Shown here: piece after piece, positions 6,067 to 37,272 of the stretch
Position numbering within the stretch: the first letter of the stretch is position 1
Layout of the letters: each line of letters opens with the position of its first letter
Source of the DNA: an uncultured Bacteroidota bacterium
GTDB taxonomy: Bacteria > Bacteroidota > Bacteroidia > Flavobacteriales_D > Sanyastnellaceae
NCBI GenBank assembly: GCA_903932685.1
Contig: CAIZGX010000064.1
Location: 1-64,000, forward strand
Length of the DNA stretch: 64,000 nt
Direction: 5' to 3'
Made by a program: the position numbers and the translations under genes
The notes under the pieces: model-generated
Database searches by the model: none
Seen by the model: only the letters and a program-made list of their open reading frames with translations
What the model was told of the DNA's origin: nothing

Positions 6067-6130
6067 AGGTCTACGAAGGTGCTTTGCAAGGACGCTTCGC
6101 GTAGCGACCTTCCAACGGACCCTTCAAAGA
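6067..6130. repeat. Mini-palindrome array, AGG/CCT separator
   Basis: Small odd palindromes TCTACGA, TGCTTTGCA and ACGCTTCGCGT are each preceded by AGG. After a switch, TCCAACGGA and TCAAAGA are each preceded by CCT or CCCT. It ends 2 nt before the pgk stop codon. The rest of 5885-6066 shows nothing I can name. Confidence 0.6.
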
Positions 6131-7892: not shown

Positions 7893-7910
7893 TTTTATCT
7901 ATTATAAATT

Positions 7911-7918
7911 CAAAAATA
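7911..7918 (-). promoter_or_regulatory. Candidate -7 box of efp-pgk
   Basis: Reads TATTTTTG on the minus strand, matching the Bacteroidota consensus TAnnTTTG, 18 nt before the efp start codon. No convincing -33 TTTG was found. Confidence 0.4.
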
Positions 7919-7939
7919 TTTTATTCTCATTTCTTGTAT

Positions 7940-8001
7940 CCACTTTGTGGTCATCCAATTTTAATTGGTCATCACAATTTGTTGTGTCATCCGCGTCGCG
8001 G
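7940..8001. repeat. Mini-palindrome array, TCAT separator
   Basis: Four palindromes (CCACTTTGTGG, CCAATTTTAATTGG, CACAATTTGTTGTG and CCGCGTCGCGG) are joined by the exact word TCAT. It fills the gap between fabH and efp and ends 1 nt before the fabH stop codon. Confidence 0.75.
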
Positions 8002-8002
8002 G

Positions 8003-8983
8003 TTAGTACGCCCATTTCACGTAAATCGCTCCCCATGTGAATCCACCGCCAAATGCGGCAAGTACGAGGTTGTCTCCTTTTTTCAATTGAGATTCCCAAT
8101 CGCACAGACACAATGGAATGGTAGCACTGGTGGTGTTTCCGTATTTGCCAATGTTGATCATTACCTTCTCACTACCCACTCCCATGCGGCGTGCAGTGGC
8201 ATCGATAATTCTTAAGTTAGCTTGGTGAGGAACTAGCCACGCCACATCGTCGGCAGTTAAATTATTCTTCTCCATTATTTCAGCAGATACATCGGCCATT
8301 CCCATAACTGCGGCCTTAAATACAGGCTGTCCGTCTTGGTAAATGAAGTGTTCTCGATTTGCAACGGTTTCAGCGGTAGACGGATTAACCGACCCGCCAG
8401 ATTTTTGATATAAATAATGTCTTCCGTTTCCGTCTGTTTTCAGAATGCTATCCATGATTCCGTTGTCGTCGTCTGTTGGTTCTAGAAGCACTGCTCCTGC
8501 GCCATCTCCGAAAAGCACACATGTTGCGCGATCGGTGTAGTCAACAATGCTCGACATTTTGTCTGCACCTACTACAACTACTTTTTTACACTTTCCTGTT
8601 TCAATGAATTGCGAACCGGTTGCTACGGCAAAAAGAAATCCTGAACAGGCTGCACCTAAGTCATATCCCCACGCGTTTTTCGCTCCAATTTTGTCGCAAA
8701 TAATATTAGCCGTTGCTGGGAATAAATGGTCTGGAGTTACGGTTGCACAAATGAGCAAATCAATGTCCATTGGAGAAATCCCACGCTTTTCGCACAGCAC
8801 CTTCACGGCCTCAACAGCCATGTCGCTGGTGCCTAATCCTTCTCCTTTCAGAATGTGTCGCTCCGAAATACCTGTGCGCGAGCGAATCCACTCGTCGTTG
8901 GTGTCTACCATTTTCTCTAAATCGGCGTTCGTTAGAATGTCGGGGGGAAGGTAACCGCCTATTGCGGTAATGGCTGCTCTCAT
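8003..8983 (-). CDS. fabH: 3-oxoacyl-ACP synthase III (KAS III)
   Basis: A 326-aa enzyme that starts type II fatty acid synthesis by condensing acetyl-CoA (or branched acyl-CoA) with malonyl-ACP. The start [13 protein letters not shown] at 8983 is preferred over an upstream ATG at 9046, because the extra 21 residues lie in the repeat region and are not typical of FabH. The Cys-His-Asn triad is visible in [21 protein letters not shown] and GKYGNTTSA. The gene lies downstream of rpmF and the DUF177 gene, a common fatty-acid cluster arrangement. A plsX gene, often found here, is absent. Confidence 0.96.
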
Positions 8984-8992
8984 ATGGTTTGT

Positions 8993-9262
8993 AGATTGAA
9001 GATGCGAAGATAGGAAATGCTTCGCAAGATTCTTCGAAAGATGCAAATGCTATTGCAAGATGTTACACAAGATGCCTTCGGCAAGATGTTTAACAAGATA
9101 TCTTCGATAAGAAATAATGTAAAACACAAAAACCTCCGAATAGAATTACCTCTTTAAAAAGGCAATCTACCGAAGGTTCTACGGAACGTTCTACGATAAT
9201 ATCGTAATGGGTTCTATGAAATTCTACGGAACGTTCTACGAAGTTCTACGTTCGTAAACGAA
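8993..9262. repeat. Mini-palindrome array, AGA then TCT separator
   Basis: In the left part, palindromes TTCTTCGAA, TGTTACACA, TGCCTTCGGCA, TGTTTAACA and TATCTTCGATA are separated by AGA. In the right part (about 9173-9265), ACGGAACGT (twice), ACGATAATATCGT, ACGAAGT and an 18-nt palindrome at 9248-9265 follow TCT, the reverse complement of AGA. About 40 nt between them (9116-9155) are not clearly repetitive. The array touches the rpmF stop codon. Confidence 0.7.
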
Positions 9263-9264
9263 CG

Positions 9265-9450
9265 TTAGGCTTCTTTCTCTATGAGAACTTTTCCTTTGTA
9301 GTACAACTTTCCTTCATACCAGTGTGCGTGGTGGAAAAGGTGTGGTTGACCAGTAGTAGTACAAGTTGAAACATTTGGTGTTTCTAATTTGTAGTGCGTT
9401 CTGCGCTTTGCTTGACGCGTTTGGGAAATCCTGTGTTTGGGATGTGCCAT
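9265..9450 (-). CDS. rpmF: 50S ribosomal protein L32
   Basis: A 61-aa basic protein starting [17 protein letters not shown], the normal L32 N-terminus. It is a structural component of the large ribosomal subunit. The zinc-binding Cys pairs found in many L32 proteins are absent (the region reads [17 protein letters not shown]), which I recall as usual for Bacteroidota. It lies 18 nt after the DUF177 gene, the classic pairing. Confidence 0.95.
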
Positions 9451-9468
9451 GGGTTCTTATTTAAAAAG

Positions 9469-9999
9469 TTATTCTTCCTCGTCGGAAGGATCAAATTCAT
9501 CGGTATCAAAATCTTTCAAACCTTTCCAGATGCTGTCAGCGTCTTCTTCTACTCGGTAAGTATTTAGGGCGCCTAAGACAACTGGGTTACAGTCGGCTTC
9601 TTTGCTATGGATTCTTCTTGAAGGAAGAGCCAGCAAGGCCATTTCATACAAACGTCGCTTAATGTCTAATTGGTACTCACTTGGTCCAAGTATCCAAACA
9701 TCGTCTTCGTCGGTGTTTGTCTTGTCTCCAAATTTCACTAAAAGGTGATCAACGTTTTCAACATGAATCCAAGTATCTTCAGCACATCTGTCGCAGGGCA
9801 GTAAGACTTCTCCTTCCACTTGCAAATCGAGGATAAGCATGTTTTGTTTCTTGTCTAAAGTGCCTGTGACATTCAGTTTTGACTCTTGAATTTCACTGTC
9901 GGGAAAGTCTGCAAAGAACGTTTTGTCCAGTTGGAATTCTAACTCATGCGTTCCAATTTTCCAACCTGAAAAGTTCAGGATATAAAGTGAATCTTGCAT
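9469..9999 (-). CDS. DUF177 (YceD-like) protein
   Basis: A 176-aa protein of the YceD/DUF177 family, which is encoded just upstream of rpmF in most bacteria. YceD homologues are linked to 23S rRNA or ribosome assembly, but the role is not settled. The conserved CDRC motif lies at about residues 71-74 after LPCDRC, and the C-terminus is very acidic (DTDEFDPSDEEE). The gene heads a probable DUF177-rpmF-fabH unit and is divergent from accB. Confidence 0.9.
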   Translation of the reverse strand: MQDSLYILNFSGWKIGTHELEFQLDKTFFADFPDSEIQESKLNVTGTLDKKQNMLILDLQVEGEVLLPCDRCAEDTWIHVENVDHLLVKFGDKTNTDEDDVWILGPSEYQLDIKRRLYEMALLALPSRRIHSKEADCNPVVLGALNTYRVEEDADSIWKGLKDFDTDEFDPSDEEE

Positions 10000-10068
10000 A
10001 GATAGATTTTCAAAAGGAGGGCAAAGATACGTTTCTTTTTTGGAAAAACAAGATATTTACACACTTTA

Positions 10069-10320
10069 CACACTTTGTGTGATGACCACTAGCGTGGATG
10101 ACCTTCTTCGAAGGATAACGCAACATAGTTGCGATGACGGCGGAGCCGATGACCTTCTTCGAAGGATAACGCAACATAGTTGCGATGACAACTTCGTTGA
10201 TGACGATTTTCAATCGATGACGCTCCGCGAAGCGGTCATCCACGTTAGTGGTCATCGCGAAGTGTCATCCGGAACGGTCATCACGTAGTGTCATCACGTA
10301 GTGTCATCCCTTCGGGTCAT
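10069..10320. repeat. Mini-palindrome array, ATGA then TCAT separator
   Basis: This fills most of the 391-nt gap between the divergent DUF177 gene and accB. It starts with CACACTTTGTGTG. About nine units with GATGA (two degenerate to GATAA) are followed by seven units with TCATC. Palindromes include CCTTCTTCGAAGG, CGGCGGAGCCG, CAACTTCGTTG, CGATTTTCAATCG, CCGGAACGG and CCCTTCGGG. A block of about 35 nt is duplicated internally (near 10097 and 10148). Positions 10184-10241 are an exact inverted copy of 19582-19639. Confidence 0.85.
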
Positions 10321-10351
10321 CAAAAAAACGAGTTTTTTTGTCGATTTGACA

Positions 10352-10359
10352 TATATTTG
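10352..10359 (+). promoter_or_regulatory. Candidate -7 box of accBC
   Basis: TATATTTG matches the Bacteroidota -7 consensus TAnnTTTG, 31 nt before the accB start. A run of T ending in G lies upstream, but at a spacing shorter than usual for the -33 element. Confidence 0.45.
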
Positions 10360-10390
10360 CCCTCAATTCAAACGAAAAATTCAAAAAACG

Positions 10391-12224: not shown

Positions 12225-12472
12225 TCAGACTAGGTCTGATCAATCTGACTTCGTCAGATCAATTACTACGTAATCAATCCTGCGGATCAATTGCTGCGCA
12301 ATCAATCTTTCAGATTAATCCTAACGTAGAAATACTGCGCAAAAATCACATCAAGTTTAATCACAACGTGATTGATTGCTCCGCAATTGATCCGCAGGAT
12401 TGATCACAACGTGATTGATTGCTCCGCAATTGATCCGAAGGATTGATCACAACGTGATTGATTCTGCTTGCA
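12224..12472. repeat. Mini-palindrome array, CA then TG separator
   Basis: Between the convergent accC and lepA ends, perfect palindromes that begin and end in AT are joined by CA: ATCAGACTAGGTCTGAT, ATCTGACTTCGTCAGAT, ATTACTACGTAAT, ATCCTGCGGAT and ATTGCTGCGCAAT. After a less regular middle (about 12305-12365) the joiner becomes TG: ATCACAACGTGAT, ATTGCTCCGCAAT and ATCCGCAGGAT, repeated almost exactly a second time. It ends with CTGCTTGCAG, 5 nt before the lepA stop. Confidence 0.85.
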
Positions 12473-18444: not shown

Positions 18445-19244
18445 TCAATTCTTCCAACGGACAAATTCTTCACTATTCAATATTCAATCACGACAGCTCG
18501 AATGAATGGGTAACCTTCATTCACGGTGCTGGAGGAAGCAGCGCCATCTGGTTCAAGCAGATAAGAGCATTTCAAAAACACTTCAATGTGTTGCTCATTG
18601 ATTTGCGCGGACACGGTCAATCGAAAAATGTTCGTCCGCTTAAAAAAGAGAAATACAACTTCGAAGAAATAGGCAACGAAGTCATTGAAGTATTGGAACA
18701 TTTGAAAATCAAATGCACGCACTTCGTTGGCATTTCCATGGGAACCATTGTCATTCGTGACATTAGCGAACGGGCCACTTCTTTGGTAAAATCCATGATC
18801 TTGGCTGGCGCCACTATGAAACTGAATGTACGCGGACAGTTTCTCATGCGATTTGGGCAAACCTTTAAGTCGTTAATTCCTTATCTCATTTTATACAGAC
18901 TTTTCGCCTTCATCATTATGCCGAAGAAAAGCAATTCGGAAGCGCGAAACCTATTCATTCGCGAAGCGAAAAAACTCGAGCAAACCGAATTCAAAAAGTG
19001 GTTCGGATTGGTTACTCAAGTAAATCCGCTTCTTTCTTCCTTCCGAAAAAAAGAAACTCCCGCAAAGACGCTATACGTTATGGGCGCAGAAGACCATATG
19101 TTTCTTCCTTCCATAAAAAAACTCGCTATGCGATTCTCTTCCTCTGAACTCATCGTTGTTCCCAACAGCGGACACGTGGTGAATATTGAGAAGCCGGTGG
19201 AGTTTAATGAGATTTGTATTTCATTCCTTCACGCTTCGCGATGA
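18441..19244 (+). CDS. Alpha/beta-fold hydrolase
   Basis: A 267-aa alpha/beta hydrolase of unknown substrate. The GTG start overlaps the dxs TGA (GTGA). Seen are the oxyanion loop HGAGGSS, a DLRGHGQS motif, the nucleophile elbow GISMGT (Ser at about residue 97), the acid GAEDHMF and the catalytic His in [11 protein letters not shown]. The coupling to dxs is suggestive but does not identify a function. The last codons form CGCTTCGCG and the stop TGA lies within the first ATGA word of a repeat array, so the array appears to have replaced or trimmed the 3' end. Confidence 0.88.
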
Positions 19245-19667
19245 CCCATAACCGCTTCGCGGATGACCCTATGGGATGACCACTGCGTGGATGACCCTAA
19301 GGGATGACCACCGCGTGGATGACCACTGCGTGGATGACCCTATGGGATGACCGCTTCGCGGATGACCCTATGGGATGACCACTGCGTGGATGACCGTTCC
19401 GGATGACCACCGCGTGGATGACCGTTCCGGATGACCACCGCGTGGATGACCCTATGGGATGACCACTGCGTGGATGACCCTATGGGATGACCACTACGTG
19501 GATGACCCTAAAGGATGACCACCGCGTGGATGACCGTTCCGGATGACCACTACGTGGATGACCCTGCGGGATGACCGTTCCGGATGACCGCTTCGCGGAG
19601 CGTCATCGATTGAAAATCGTCATCAACGAAGTTGTCATCACAACGTGTTGTGTCATCGGCTCCGCCG
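19232..19667. repeat. Long mini-palindrome array, ATGA then TCAT separator
   Basis: This occupies the whole 442-nt gap between the hydrolase and TonB receptor genes. There are 25 GATGACC units followed by 4 TCATC units. The palindromes come from a small set: CCCTATGGG, CCACTGCGTGG, CCACCGCGTGG, CCGTTCCGG, CCGCTTCGCGG, CCCTAAGGG, CCCTGCGGG and CCACTACGTGG. In the reverse part they are CGATTGAAAATCG, CAACGAAGTTG, CACAACGTGTTGTG and CGGCTCCGCCG. The order of units looks shuffled, not simply periodic. Positions 19582-19639 are the inverted copy of 10184-10241. Confidence 0.9.
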
Positions 19668-22004: not shown

Positions 22005-22194
22005 AGATACTTCGTAAGATGTTTCACAAGATTCTGCGAAAGAAGCTTCGCTAGATAATTGCTTGCCGAAGGCATCTTTTGGAAAATCTTGTGCTACATC
22101 TTTTAAAAAATCGTTTGTAACATCTTGTACTACATCTTTTGAAAAATCTTACGAAGTATCTTACGAAGTATCTTGTGAAACATCTTTCGAAGAA
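22005..22194. repeat. Mini-palindrome array, AGA then TCT separator
   Basis: This fills the gap between the TonB receptor gene and tdk. In the left part TACTTCGTA, TGTTTCACA and TTCTGCGAA follow AGA. In the right part TGTGCTACA, TGTACTACA, TACGAAGTA (twice), TGTGAAACA and TTCGAAGAA follow TCT. It is the same separator class as 8993-9262. It ends 17 nt before the tdk start. Confidence 0.75.
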
Positions 22195-36174: not shown

Positions 36175-36179
36175 ATTTG

Positions 36180-36361
36180 ATGACAATACCACTAAGTGGA
36201 TGACACAACACGTTGTGATGACCGCGATGCGGATGACGCTGCGCGATGACCCTACGGGATGACACAACACGTTGTGATGACGCTGCGCGATGACCCTACG
36301 GGATGACACAACACGTTGTGATGACGCTGCGCGATGACCCTATGGGATGACCGCTTCGCGG
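36180..36361. repeat. Mini-palindrome array, ATGA separator, entering a coding 3' end
   Basis: Twelve GATGA units carry CACAACACGTTGTG, CGCTGCGCG, CCCTACGGG, CCCTATGGG, CCGCGATGCGG and CCGCTTCGCGG. A three-unit block of about 44 nt is repeated nearly three times. There is no switch to TCAT in this array. The right end covers the last codons and the stop of the minus-strand SGNH gene. Confidence 0.88.
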
Positions 36362-37272
36362 AAAGTTGTGTTGTGAAGAAGAAACTGATTATACAACTCT
36401 ACCCCTTGCTGATTCAAATGCGAAAGGTCGGCAAACTCATTTACACCAAAGCCTTCGGTATAATAGGTTAGATCGATGTAAGGAACACCAAGGCGTTCGA
36501 TAAGCGGAGTGAAGCGGGATAAAAATTTCTCGTGATAATTACGAAGTCCCGGTGATGCCGGTAACGCATGACTGCACAATACAATGCGCTTACCATCGGA
36601 TTGCATTTGCTTAATCATTGTTTCGAATACCACGAACATTTCTTCGTTCGCATCGAAGACAGAGTCGTTCAAAGGCTCAACAGCATACAAGATTCCTTTC
36701 TTCTCGCAGAAGCCATTTTTAATGTAGTCGGTATTCGGAGCTTCGTCTTTCACATTCAAGCTAGCTAATCGGACCGCAAGGGCATTTAGGGTGTACATCT
36801 TCACTTCTTGCTTCACCAAGGCAAAGGCGGCAGCATTTGTAGCTACGTTCTGAATCAAACGCATGTTACTCTCGGTTCCTTCCAACTCGAACACCGGATC
36901 GTACACATCTAAAATGAAAACATCGGCTCGGTCTCTCAAATATTCATTGTACAACACCAACGAGCCTTTCGCATTTTGCGCGCTGGTTCCTGCATTGAAC
37001 AACGATACCCCTGCCTGCTCGAAGATGCGCGGATCATAGCCCCTGTAAGCATGAGAAGAGCCCAGAACAATTGCATCGTATTTCGTTGGGTTGGAAGTTA
37101 AATCGCGCATCATCTGCAACTCTTGCCCACCGTTGCGTTGCAAATTTGGGACGAAGAACAACGACATTCTTCGATCGATCAGTTGAACATTCGAAAAAAT
37201 GAAAATCGCCCCAGCGTATATCACACACGCTGCAAGCAAGACCTTCAAACTATTTCGAACAATCAATTTCAT
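36340..37272 (-). CDS. SGNH-hydrolase-like membrane protein, MBOAT partner
   Basis: A 310-aa protein with one N-terminal membrane helix (about 9-27) and a periplasmic SGNH-like domain. LGSSHAYRGYDP provides the GDS-type Ser block and LSHLNQQG the C-terminal Asp/His block (DLSHLN). Such proteins act with MBOAT acyltransferases in adding or removing acyl groups on surface glycans, as AlgX/AlgJ do with AlgI. It overlaps the MBOAT gene by 1 nt (TAATG). The last codons (REAVIP and the stop) are supplied by the repeat array, so the C-terminus differs from what the ancestor had. Confidence 0.8.
   Translation of the reverse strand: MKLIVRNSLKVLLAACVIYAGAIFIFSNVQLIDRRMSLFFVPNLQRNGGQELQMMRDLTSNPTKYDAIVLGSSHAYRGYDPRIFEQAGVSLFNAGTSAQNAKGSLVLYNEYLRDRADVFILDVYDPVFELEGTESNMRLIQNVATNAAAFALVKQEVKMYTLNALAVRLASLNVKDEAPNTDYIKNGFCEKKGILYAVEPLNDSVFDANEEMFVVFETMIKQMQSDGKRIVLCSHALPASPGLRNYHEKFLSRFTPLIERLGVPYIDLTYYTEGFGVNEFADLSHLNQQGVELYNQFLLHNTTFREAVIP

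Follow-up and report, generated by a model that had tools for sequence, protein, structure and literature searches.

Short intergenic palindromes that are clustered, arranged in inverted pairs and present in many copies, often downstream of genes, are portrayed in the literature on REP, BIME and REPIN sequences and their RAYT partners (PMC3733652, PMC3116915, PMC6006769), and the hairpin arrays reported here share these traits. The 23S rRNA IVS, called selfish in a report on Coxiella, carries an S23/IVP gene in the loop of a stem formed by its complementary ends (PMC4990558). Mitochondrial repetitive hairpin-forming, or double-hairpin, elements (PMC2800124) are similar in being dispersed intergenic hairpins that are thought to be mobile, but they are organellar. 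At the level of single units, the arrays resemble d(GNA)-loop DNA mini-hairpins such as d(GCGAAGC), with GNA or TNC loops in 106 of the 180 distinct odd-length hairpins (distinct hairpins were counted, not repeated units) and GCGAAGC contained in the array centre. To our knowledge such mini-hairpins are known as a biophysical motif and not as arrays, and we know of no mitochondrial hairpin element with constant linker classes or a conserved switch centre. CRISPR arrays, with constant repeats and unique, non-palindromic spacers, differ from the arrays described here, whose variable parts form hairpins and turn up again at other loci.

The window, a 64,000-nt stretch of contig CAIZGX010000064.1 from an uncultured Bacteroidota bacterium, contains two arrays of the ATGA/TCAT class that share a long inverted match. 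Array 1 (10069–10340) lies between the divergent genes yceD (9469–9999, minus strand) and accB (from 10391, plus strand), and array 2 (19232–19667) is flanked by a hydrolase gene and a TonB-receptor-like gene; these and all other gene names are presumptive, having been assigned by eye, except for PF05635 and PF01797. An array is a run of 3–6-bp hairpins alternating with a constant class word, which in the ATGA class is GATGAC and, past the centre, GTCATC. In arrays 1 and 2 the hairpin loops are mostly of 3 nt and the separator is ATGA to the left of the centre and TCAT to its right; the class word is read inward from both ends and is therefore replaced by its reverse complement once the centre is passed. 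Array 2 begins within the hydrolase ORF, whose final codons and stop are provided by the array's first hairpin and linker (19232–19244).

A parser that looks for hairpins spaced by a constant word, and which preselects palindromes, recovered 10 arrays with three or more units from the window, compared with 0, 0, 0, 0 and 1 in five Markov shuffles. Three linker classes (ATGA, AGA, and CA) were found in the window and three more (AGG, ATTC, and CCTC) elsewhere in the genus, with an AGG-class centre, CGCTTCGCGTAGCG, located in the window too by the centre-word search (6093–6106, plus strand). Parsed arrays include one of the AGA class with 6 hairpin units (9027–9112, plus strand), a two-armed CA/TG-class array between accC and lepA (12241–12460), and a two-armed AGA/TCT-class array between the TonB-receptor-like gene and a tdk-like gene (22005–22185). 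The ATGA/TCAT class is also represented by a short array with three GTCATC words between efp and fabH (7940–8001) and, after a tRNA gene, by an ATGA array of single polarity (36179–36363, plus strand). The closing base pair is fixed within a class (ATGA, 304/304, C-G; AGG, 84/84; AGA, 168/172), and the linker and this pair are the only constant parts of the ATGA class, which alone has 78 distinct hairpin sequences.

As had been claimed in a sequence-only reading of the window, positions 10184–10241 are the letter-for-letter reverse complement of 19582–19639, a match of 58 nt between sites ~9.4 kb apart that grows to 63 nt with one mismatch (10179–10241 and 19582–19644). The five palindromes counted in that reading are instead two arm hairpins (CAACTTCGTTG and CGATTTTCAATCG) and the centre, making three hairpin units. 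On the plus strand, the array-1 copy (10184–10241) consists of GATGAC, hairpin AACTTCGTT, GATGAC, hairpin GATTTTCAATC, GATGAC, the centre, and GTCATC C, and the array-2 copy (19582–19639) is its exact equivalent on the minus strand. The 25-nt centre, at which the polarity switches, occupies 10216–10240 in array 1, where it reads GATGAC-CGCTTCGCGGAGC-GTCATC on the minus strand, and 19583–19607 in array 2, where the same layout is found on the plus strand. A search of the bacterium’s own genome, as that reading had proposed, returned only these two places at full length, followed by partial matches on contigs C4 (81%) and C62 (83%).

It is extremely improbable that the match reflects an assembly artefact or chance. 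The genome is an 84-contig draft and arrays do break contigs elsewhere (G001 C16 and G004 C12 both end in arrays), but the doubt raised earlier about the assembly is weakened by the placement of both arrays in one 137-kb contig and by the presence of the same outer units in relatives at both sites, the ends of array 1 and array 2 matching genome G004 on both outer sides. When the hairpin units were permuted within each of the two arrays 500 times, the longest common stretch averaged 23.7 nt and was at most 42 nt, compared with the 58 nt observed.

The ATGA-to-TCAT switch point, previously described as common to both arrays, is indeed shared by them but is not limited to them, as many other loci carry it. 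The GATGAC-13 nt-GTCATC centre occurs at 13 places in five of the nine genomes of the genus (G000, which is the window genome, and G001, G004, G005, and G008), 11 of which have identical 13 inner letters. The reverse polarity, GTCATC..GATGAC, was found at 9 places, approximately the control level, none of which is an array centre by eye, and ATGA therefore reads inward in all arms. The centre word CGCTTCGCGNAGCG had 42 strand matches in eight of the nine genomes, compared with 1 for the reversed control, and the centre CGCTTCGCG-N-AGCG is common to two linker classes, with N = G alongside ATGA and N = T alongside AGG (AAGG). Among the 33 deduplicated rows listed for the centre word, 10 fall in ATGA arrays (all N = G) and 18 in AGG arrays (all N = T), one is a near-AGG case, and the remaining four are two palindromes on both strands, outside arrays. 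In the ATGA class the centre word is preceded by C and in the AGG class by A, so that the outer pair covaries (C-G, A-T); this speaks for the hairpin XCGC-TTC-GCGX’. A DNA energy model prefers CGCT paired with AGCG, beneath paired linkers, and either fold is possible. A second type of ATGA centre (GCGGAC..GTCAC) was seen at L122 and L104 11600–11800, in G004 and G003.

The same 58 letters thus appear at two sites, inverted relative to each other, because each site has a copy of the conserved centre of one repeat family; the 58-mer is not a private duplication but the centre of a dispersed two-armed array family. GATGAC triplets spaced 5–20 nt apart number 107 in the bacterium’s own genome, compared with 0 for the reversed pattern, and are present in eight of the nine genomes of the genus, with none in G007. 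The array family is genus-specific. Pattern matches inspected in nine genomes of the wider family were not hairpin arrays but Asp-rich-looking repeats, and two genomes of the order (G053 and G057) match the triplet pattern, at the pattern level only. Named Bacteroidota loci around dxs yielded 11 array calls compared with 7 in shuffles and therefore carry no array signal. The genus tree, built on nine genes with missing data, has weak nodes (48–94).

According to the sequence-only reading, recombination between the copies would invert the 10.2–19.6 kb block, a model in which a local inverted duplication makes this 9.4-kb block invertible. The two copies are inverted and exact, and the lineage does have a 2-kb inversion that ends on one side at array 1, but the segment running from accB to the TonB-receptor-like gene is unchanged in order and orientation in G004 and G006, each of which covers the two junctions. 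G001 and G003 span only parts of the block and are collinear as well. Further, 58 nt is short for homologous recombination. Two observations had been named in advance as together telling against the idea, namely that relatives lack the inversion and that further copies do not exist; the relatives show no inversion, yet the module is present at many other loci. The 9.4-kb inversion is rejected on the collinearity of G004 and G006, a local duplication of this kind is very improbable, and the inverted 58-mer can be accounted for without phase-variable inversion.

The 2-kb inversion is a different and older event that ends at the array-1 site, the yceD-fabH block being turned round between efp and accB in the window. 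The outgroup order is fabH, accB, and accC on one strand (16/16 loci), and G007 has pgk and efp, followed by yceD, fabH, and accB on the other strand. One breakpoint of the inversion falls at the site of the short array (7940–8001) and the other at that of array 1; as the array classes there differ between species, the arrays cannot be claimed as its cause. Measured against G007 and all of the outgroups compared, the inverted segment is the yceD-rpmF-fabH block (7893–10390), with both breakpoints at array sites.

Core modules of the family are dispersed among numerous unrelated loci, in several species. The array-2 site of G004 has an uninterrupted 117 nt identical to the window, including the whole 58-mer, while the genes neighbouring array 2 are only about 84–86% identical between the two genomes. 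Array 2 of G006 has outer and neighbouring units in common with the window and lacks the 58-mer, and array 1 of G004 shares both outer ends with the window, has a different centre, and also lacks it. The presence of the 58-mer at the array-2 site of G004, together with its absence from the array-1 site there, supports copying between arrays, in agreement with the earlier suggestion that units are copied or moved between loci. Based on the presence and absence of the 58-mer at both sites in G004 and G006, the array-1 copy is probably the younger, having come from array 2 or from one of its sister arrays, the alternative being a loss of the 58-mer in G004. Other non-orthologous arrays, in G004 and G008, have exact stretches in common of 91 nt (G004 C19 and G008 C82), 80 nt, and 72 nt. 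The intergenic site at accB is occupied by different classes in different species: the window genome and G004 have ATGA there, G003, G005, and G008 have AGA, and G006 has AGG.

In matched arrays of related species, pairs that share ancestry and whose units were preselected as palindromic (perfect stems were demanded of the CA class), changed bases amounted to 44 of 1404 in stems and 131 of 473 in loops, and to 18 of 396 and 28 of 173, respectively, when the CA class was excluded. Of 702 stem pairs, 676 were unchanged, 17 had changed on both sides with pairing kept, eight had changed on one side, and one otherwise. As single-stranded DNA, array 1 (10066–10340) folds far better than shuffles (z = −8.8), while the 58-mer alone has no unusual fold (z = −0.87). 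The arrays could be a DNA or RNA structure selected by the host, such as a terminator, an insulator, or a protector of mRNA ends, with gene conversion as the only source of sharing between loci. The conservation of stems relative to loops, the array-2 arm that has stayed identical between less similar genes, the array ends that adjoin stop codons, and the prevalence of GNA and TNC loops, the former of which give DNA hairpins extra stability, are all consistent with such selection. Nevertheless it seems rather unlikely, given that 5 of the 26 placed arrays, array 1 included, lie between divergent genes, that the class at one site has been replaced between species, and that the only terminator-like hits (GC hairpin and T run) in arrays 1 and 2 are two on the minus strand of array 1, with none on the plus strand of either array. 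Terminator hits across the region totalled 17, compared with 13.9 expected, and the search of arrays 1 and 2 lends no support to a role as Rho-independent terminators.

Genes encoding PF05635 (23S_rRNA_IVP, S23) number 28 and are distributed across eight of the nine genomes of the genus; G007, which lacks ATGA arrays, has none, and none was reported on the contig of the window. Flanking arrays, defined as at least three units within 350 nt of the gene, were present on both sides of 11 of the 28 IVP genes, on one side of 9, and on neither side of 8, compared with 4, 35, and 64, respectively, of 103 control genes from the same genus. Orthologous IVP loci are not independent, and once these were merged, arrays occurred on both sides at 6 of 9 IVP sites (5 of 9 without the doubtful site L303) and at 4 of the 103 controls. 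Inverted words common to both flanks exceeded the 99th percentile of shuffles at 20 of 25 loci of the genus and direct words at 8 of 25, three of the 28 loci having been dropped for flanks that were too short. IVP genes are common in Bacteroidota and were present in 39 of 60 genomes of the order. At this level arrays flanked both sides at 2 of 29 IVP loci, and the flank-word test was not significant (4/28 inverted, 3/28 direct).

Four genomes have an IVP ORF within the array region at the accB site (L285 in G008, L292 in G003, L295 in G001, and L302 in G006), with AGG-type IVPs in AGG arrays (G001 and G006) and AGA-type IVPs in AGA arrays (G003 and G008). Among the loci listed, each clade of the IVP protein tree goes with one linker class; further clades go with the GAAT, GAGG, and CA types, and the classes of weaker clades (TTAC-like, GTTG-like, and purine-rich) were read by eye. 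The ATGA-type IVP is known from two loci, both in G004, and G000 has none (best match, 37% identity) despite more than 100 ATGA triplets. At one of the loci in G004 (L304), the ATGA-type IVP gene is situated inside one arm and not at the centre, the order being ATGA arm, gene, ATGA arm, core, and TCAT arm.

The arrays diverge from REP, BIME, and REPIN sequences in having a constant short linker and a variable hairpin, several linker classes per genome, and one centre across classes. The GTAG or CGTC tag of REP sequences is absent from the foot of the hairpins, where GATGAC closes the units of the ATGA class and AGA, AGG, CA, ATTC, and CCTC serve in the others, and the diversity of hairpins leaves no common consensus hairpin. 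A REP-type family moved by the Y1 (IS200-like) transposase of the genus would account for arrays that are intergenic, palindromic, clustered, and inverted in arrangement, and a PF01797 (Y1) gene lies on the same contig just outside the window (C64:70559–70900) and in four of the nine genomes. The gene is absent, however, from the other five, several of which are incomplete but which include G003 (96% complete, 49 triplets), and its flanks have their own, different palindromes and no GATGAC arrays. No clear RAYT-type partner was found, the Y1_Tnp genes being subclass-1.2-like by eye on the motifs DHVH, WQ, and YIQNQKNHH, and transposases of this subclass lack IS-type end structures according to PMC6006769. 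Coupled with a linker unlike either tag, this makes a Y1-driven REP family quite improbable; as a partner of the arrays, the Y1 transposase is a weak candidate in view of its patchy presence and the unlike flanks.

The resemblance to the 23S rRNA IVS lies in complementary ends around an ORF, evident in the inverted flank words, and in the encoding of PF05635, the latter for gene-bearing relatives of the arrays only. Arrays 1 and 2 differ in being located between protein genes and not in a 23S rRNA helix, and the family differs in arms that are arrays of mini-hairpins and in many copies without a gene. Removal from RNA by RNase III is a further trait of the rRNA IVS. The lack of the REP tag and of a consensus hairpin, together with a location outside 23S rRNA, sets the array family apart from both REP sequences and the rRNA IVS, though by analogy it may work like the latter. 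No function for the IVP outside rRNA was stated in the literature searched, and no linker-hairpin arrays with IVP genes were described in that literature, outside of which lie most subscription journals.

Because the arrays resemble the plan of the 23S rRNA IVS, the 58-mer is best placed at the core of a family that is linked to the IVP and probably selfish. We consider it reasonably probable that it represents the core conserved between two members of a two-armed hairpin-array family that are IVP-linked, gene-less derivatives and have spread between loci. The full element would have an IVP gene between two inverted arms; these would form a branched stem whose loop contains the gene or lies close to it, as in the 23S rRNA IVS. 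Gene-less arrays, including both in the window, would derive from it and would have spread either by inserting at new sites or through gene conversion from one array to another. The 58-mer would probably have reached array 1 as an inverted copy made from array 2 or from a sister of it. We infer that the arrays are mobile or transpose, that the IVP has a role in this, and that they fold in the cell; neither a target-site duplication nor a clean empty site was found for the arrays. A more far-reaching proposal, offered tentatively, is a new class of selfish elements, each with a four-helix-bundle IVP and its own linker word, which would spread as hairpin arrays around a common centre (shared by two classes) and whose classes would compete for and replace each other at intergenic sites, protein and word together; the 58-mer would then be a gene-less core of the ATGA class. 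If every IVP has a linker word of its own, the DNA or RNA that the protein targets could be read directly from the genome, and the arrays would show how palindrome-rich intergenic DNA grows, spreads, and swaps between bacterial loci. Elsewhere in the window, positions 1–1290 contain 198-nt tandem repeats (~6.4 copies) within a long ORF.
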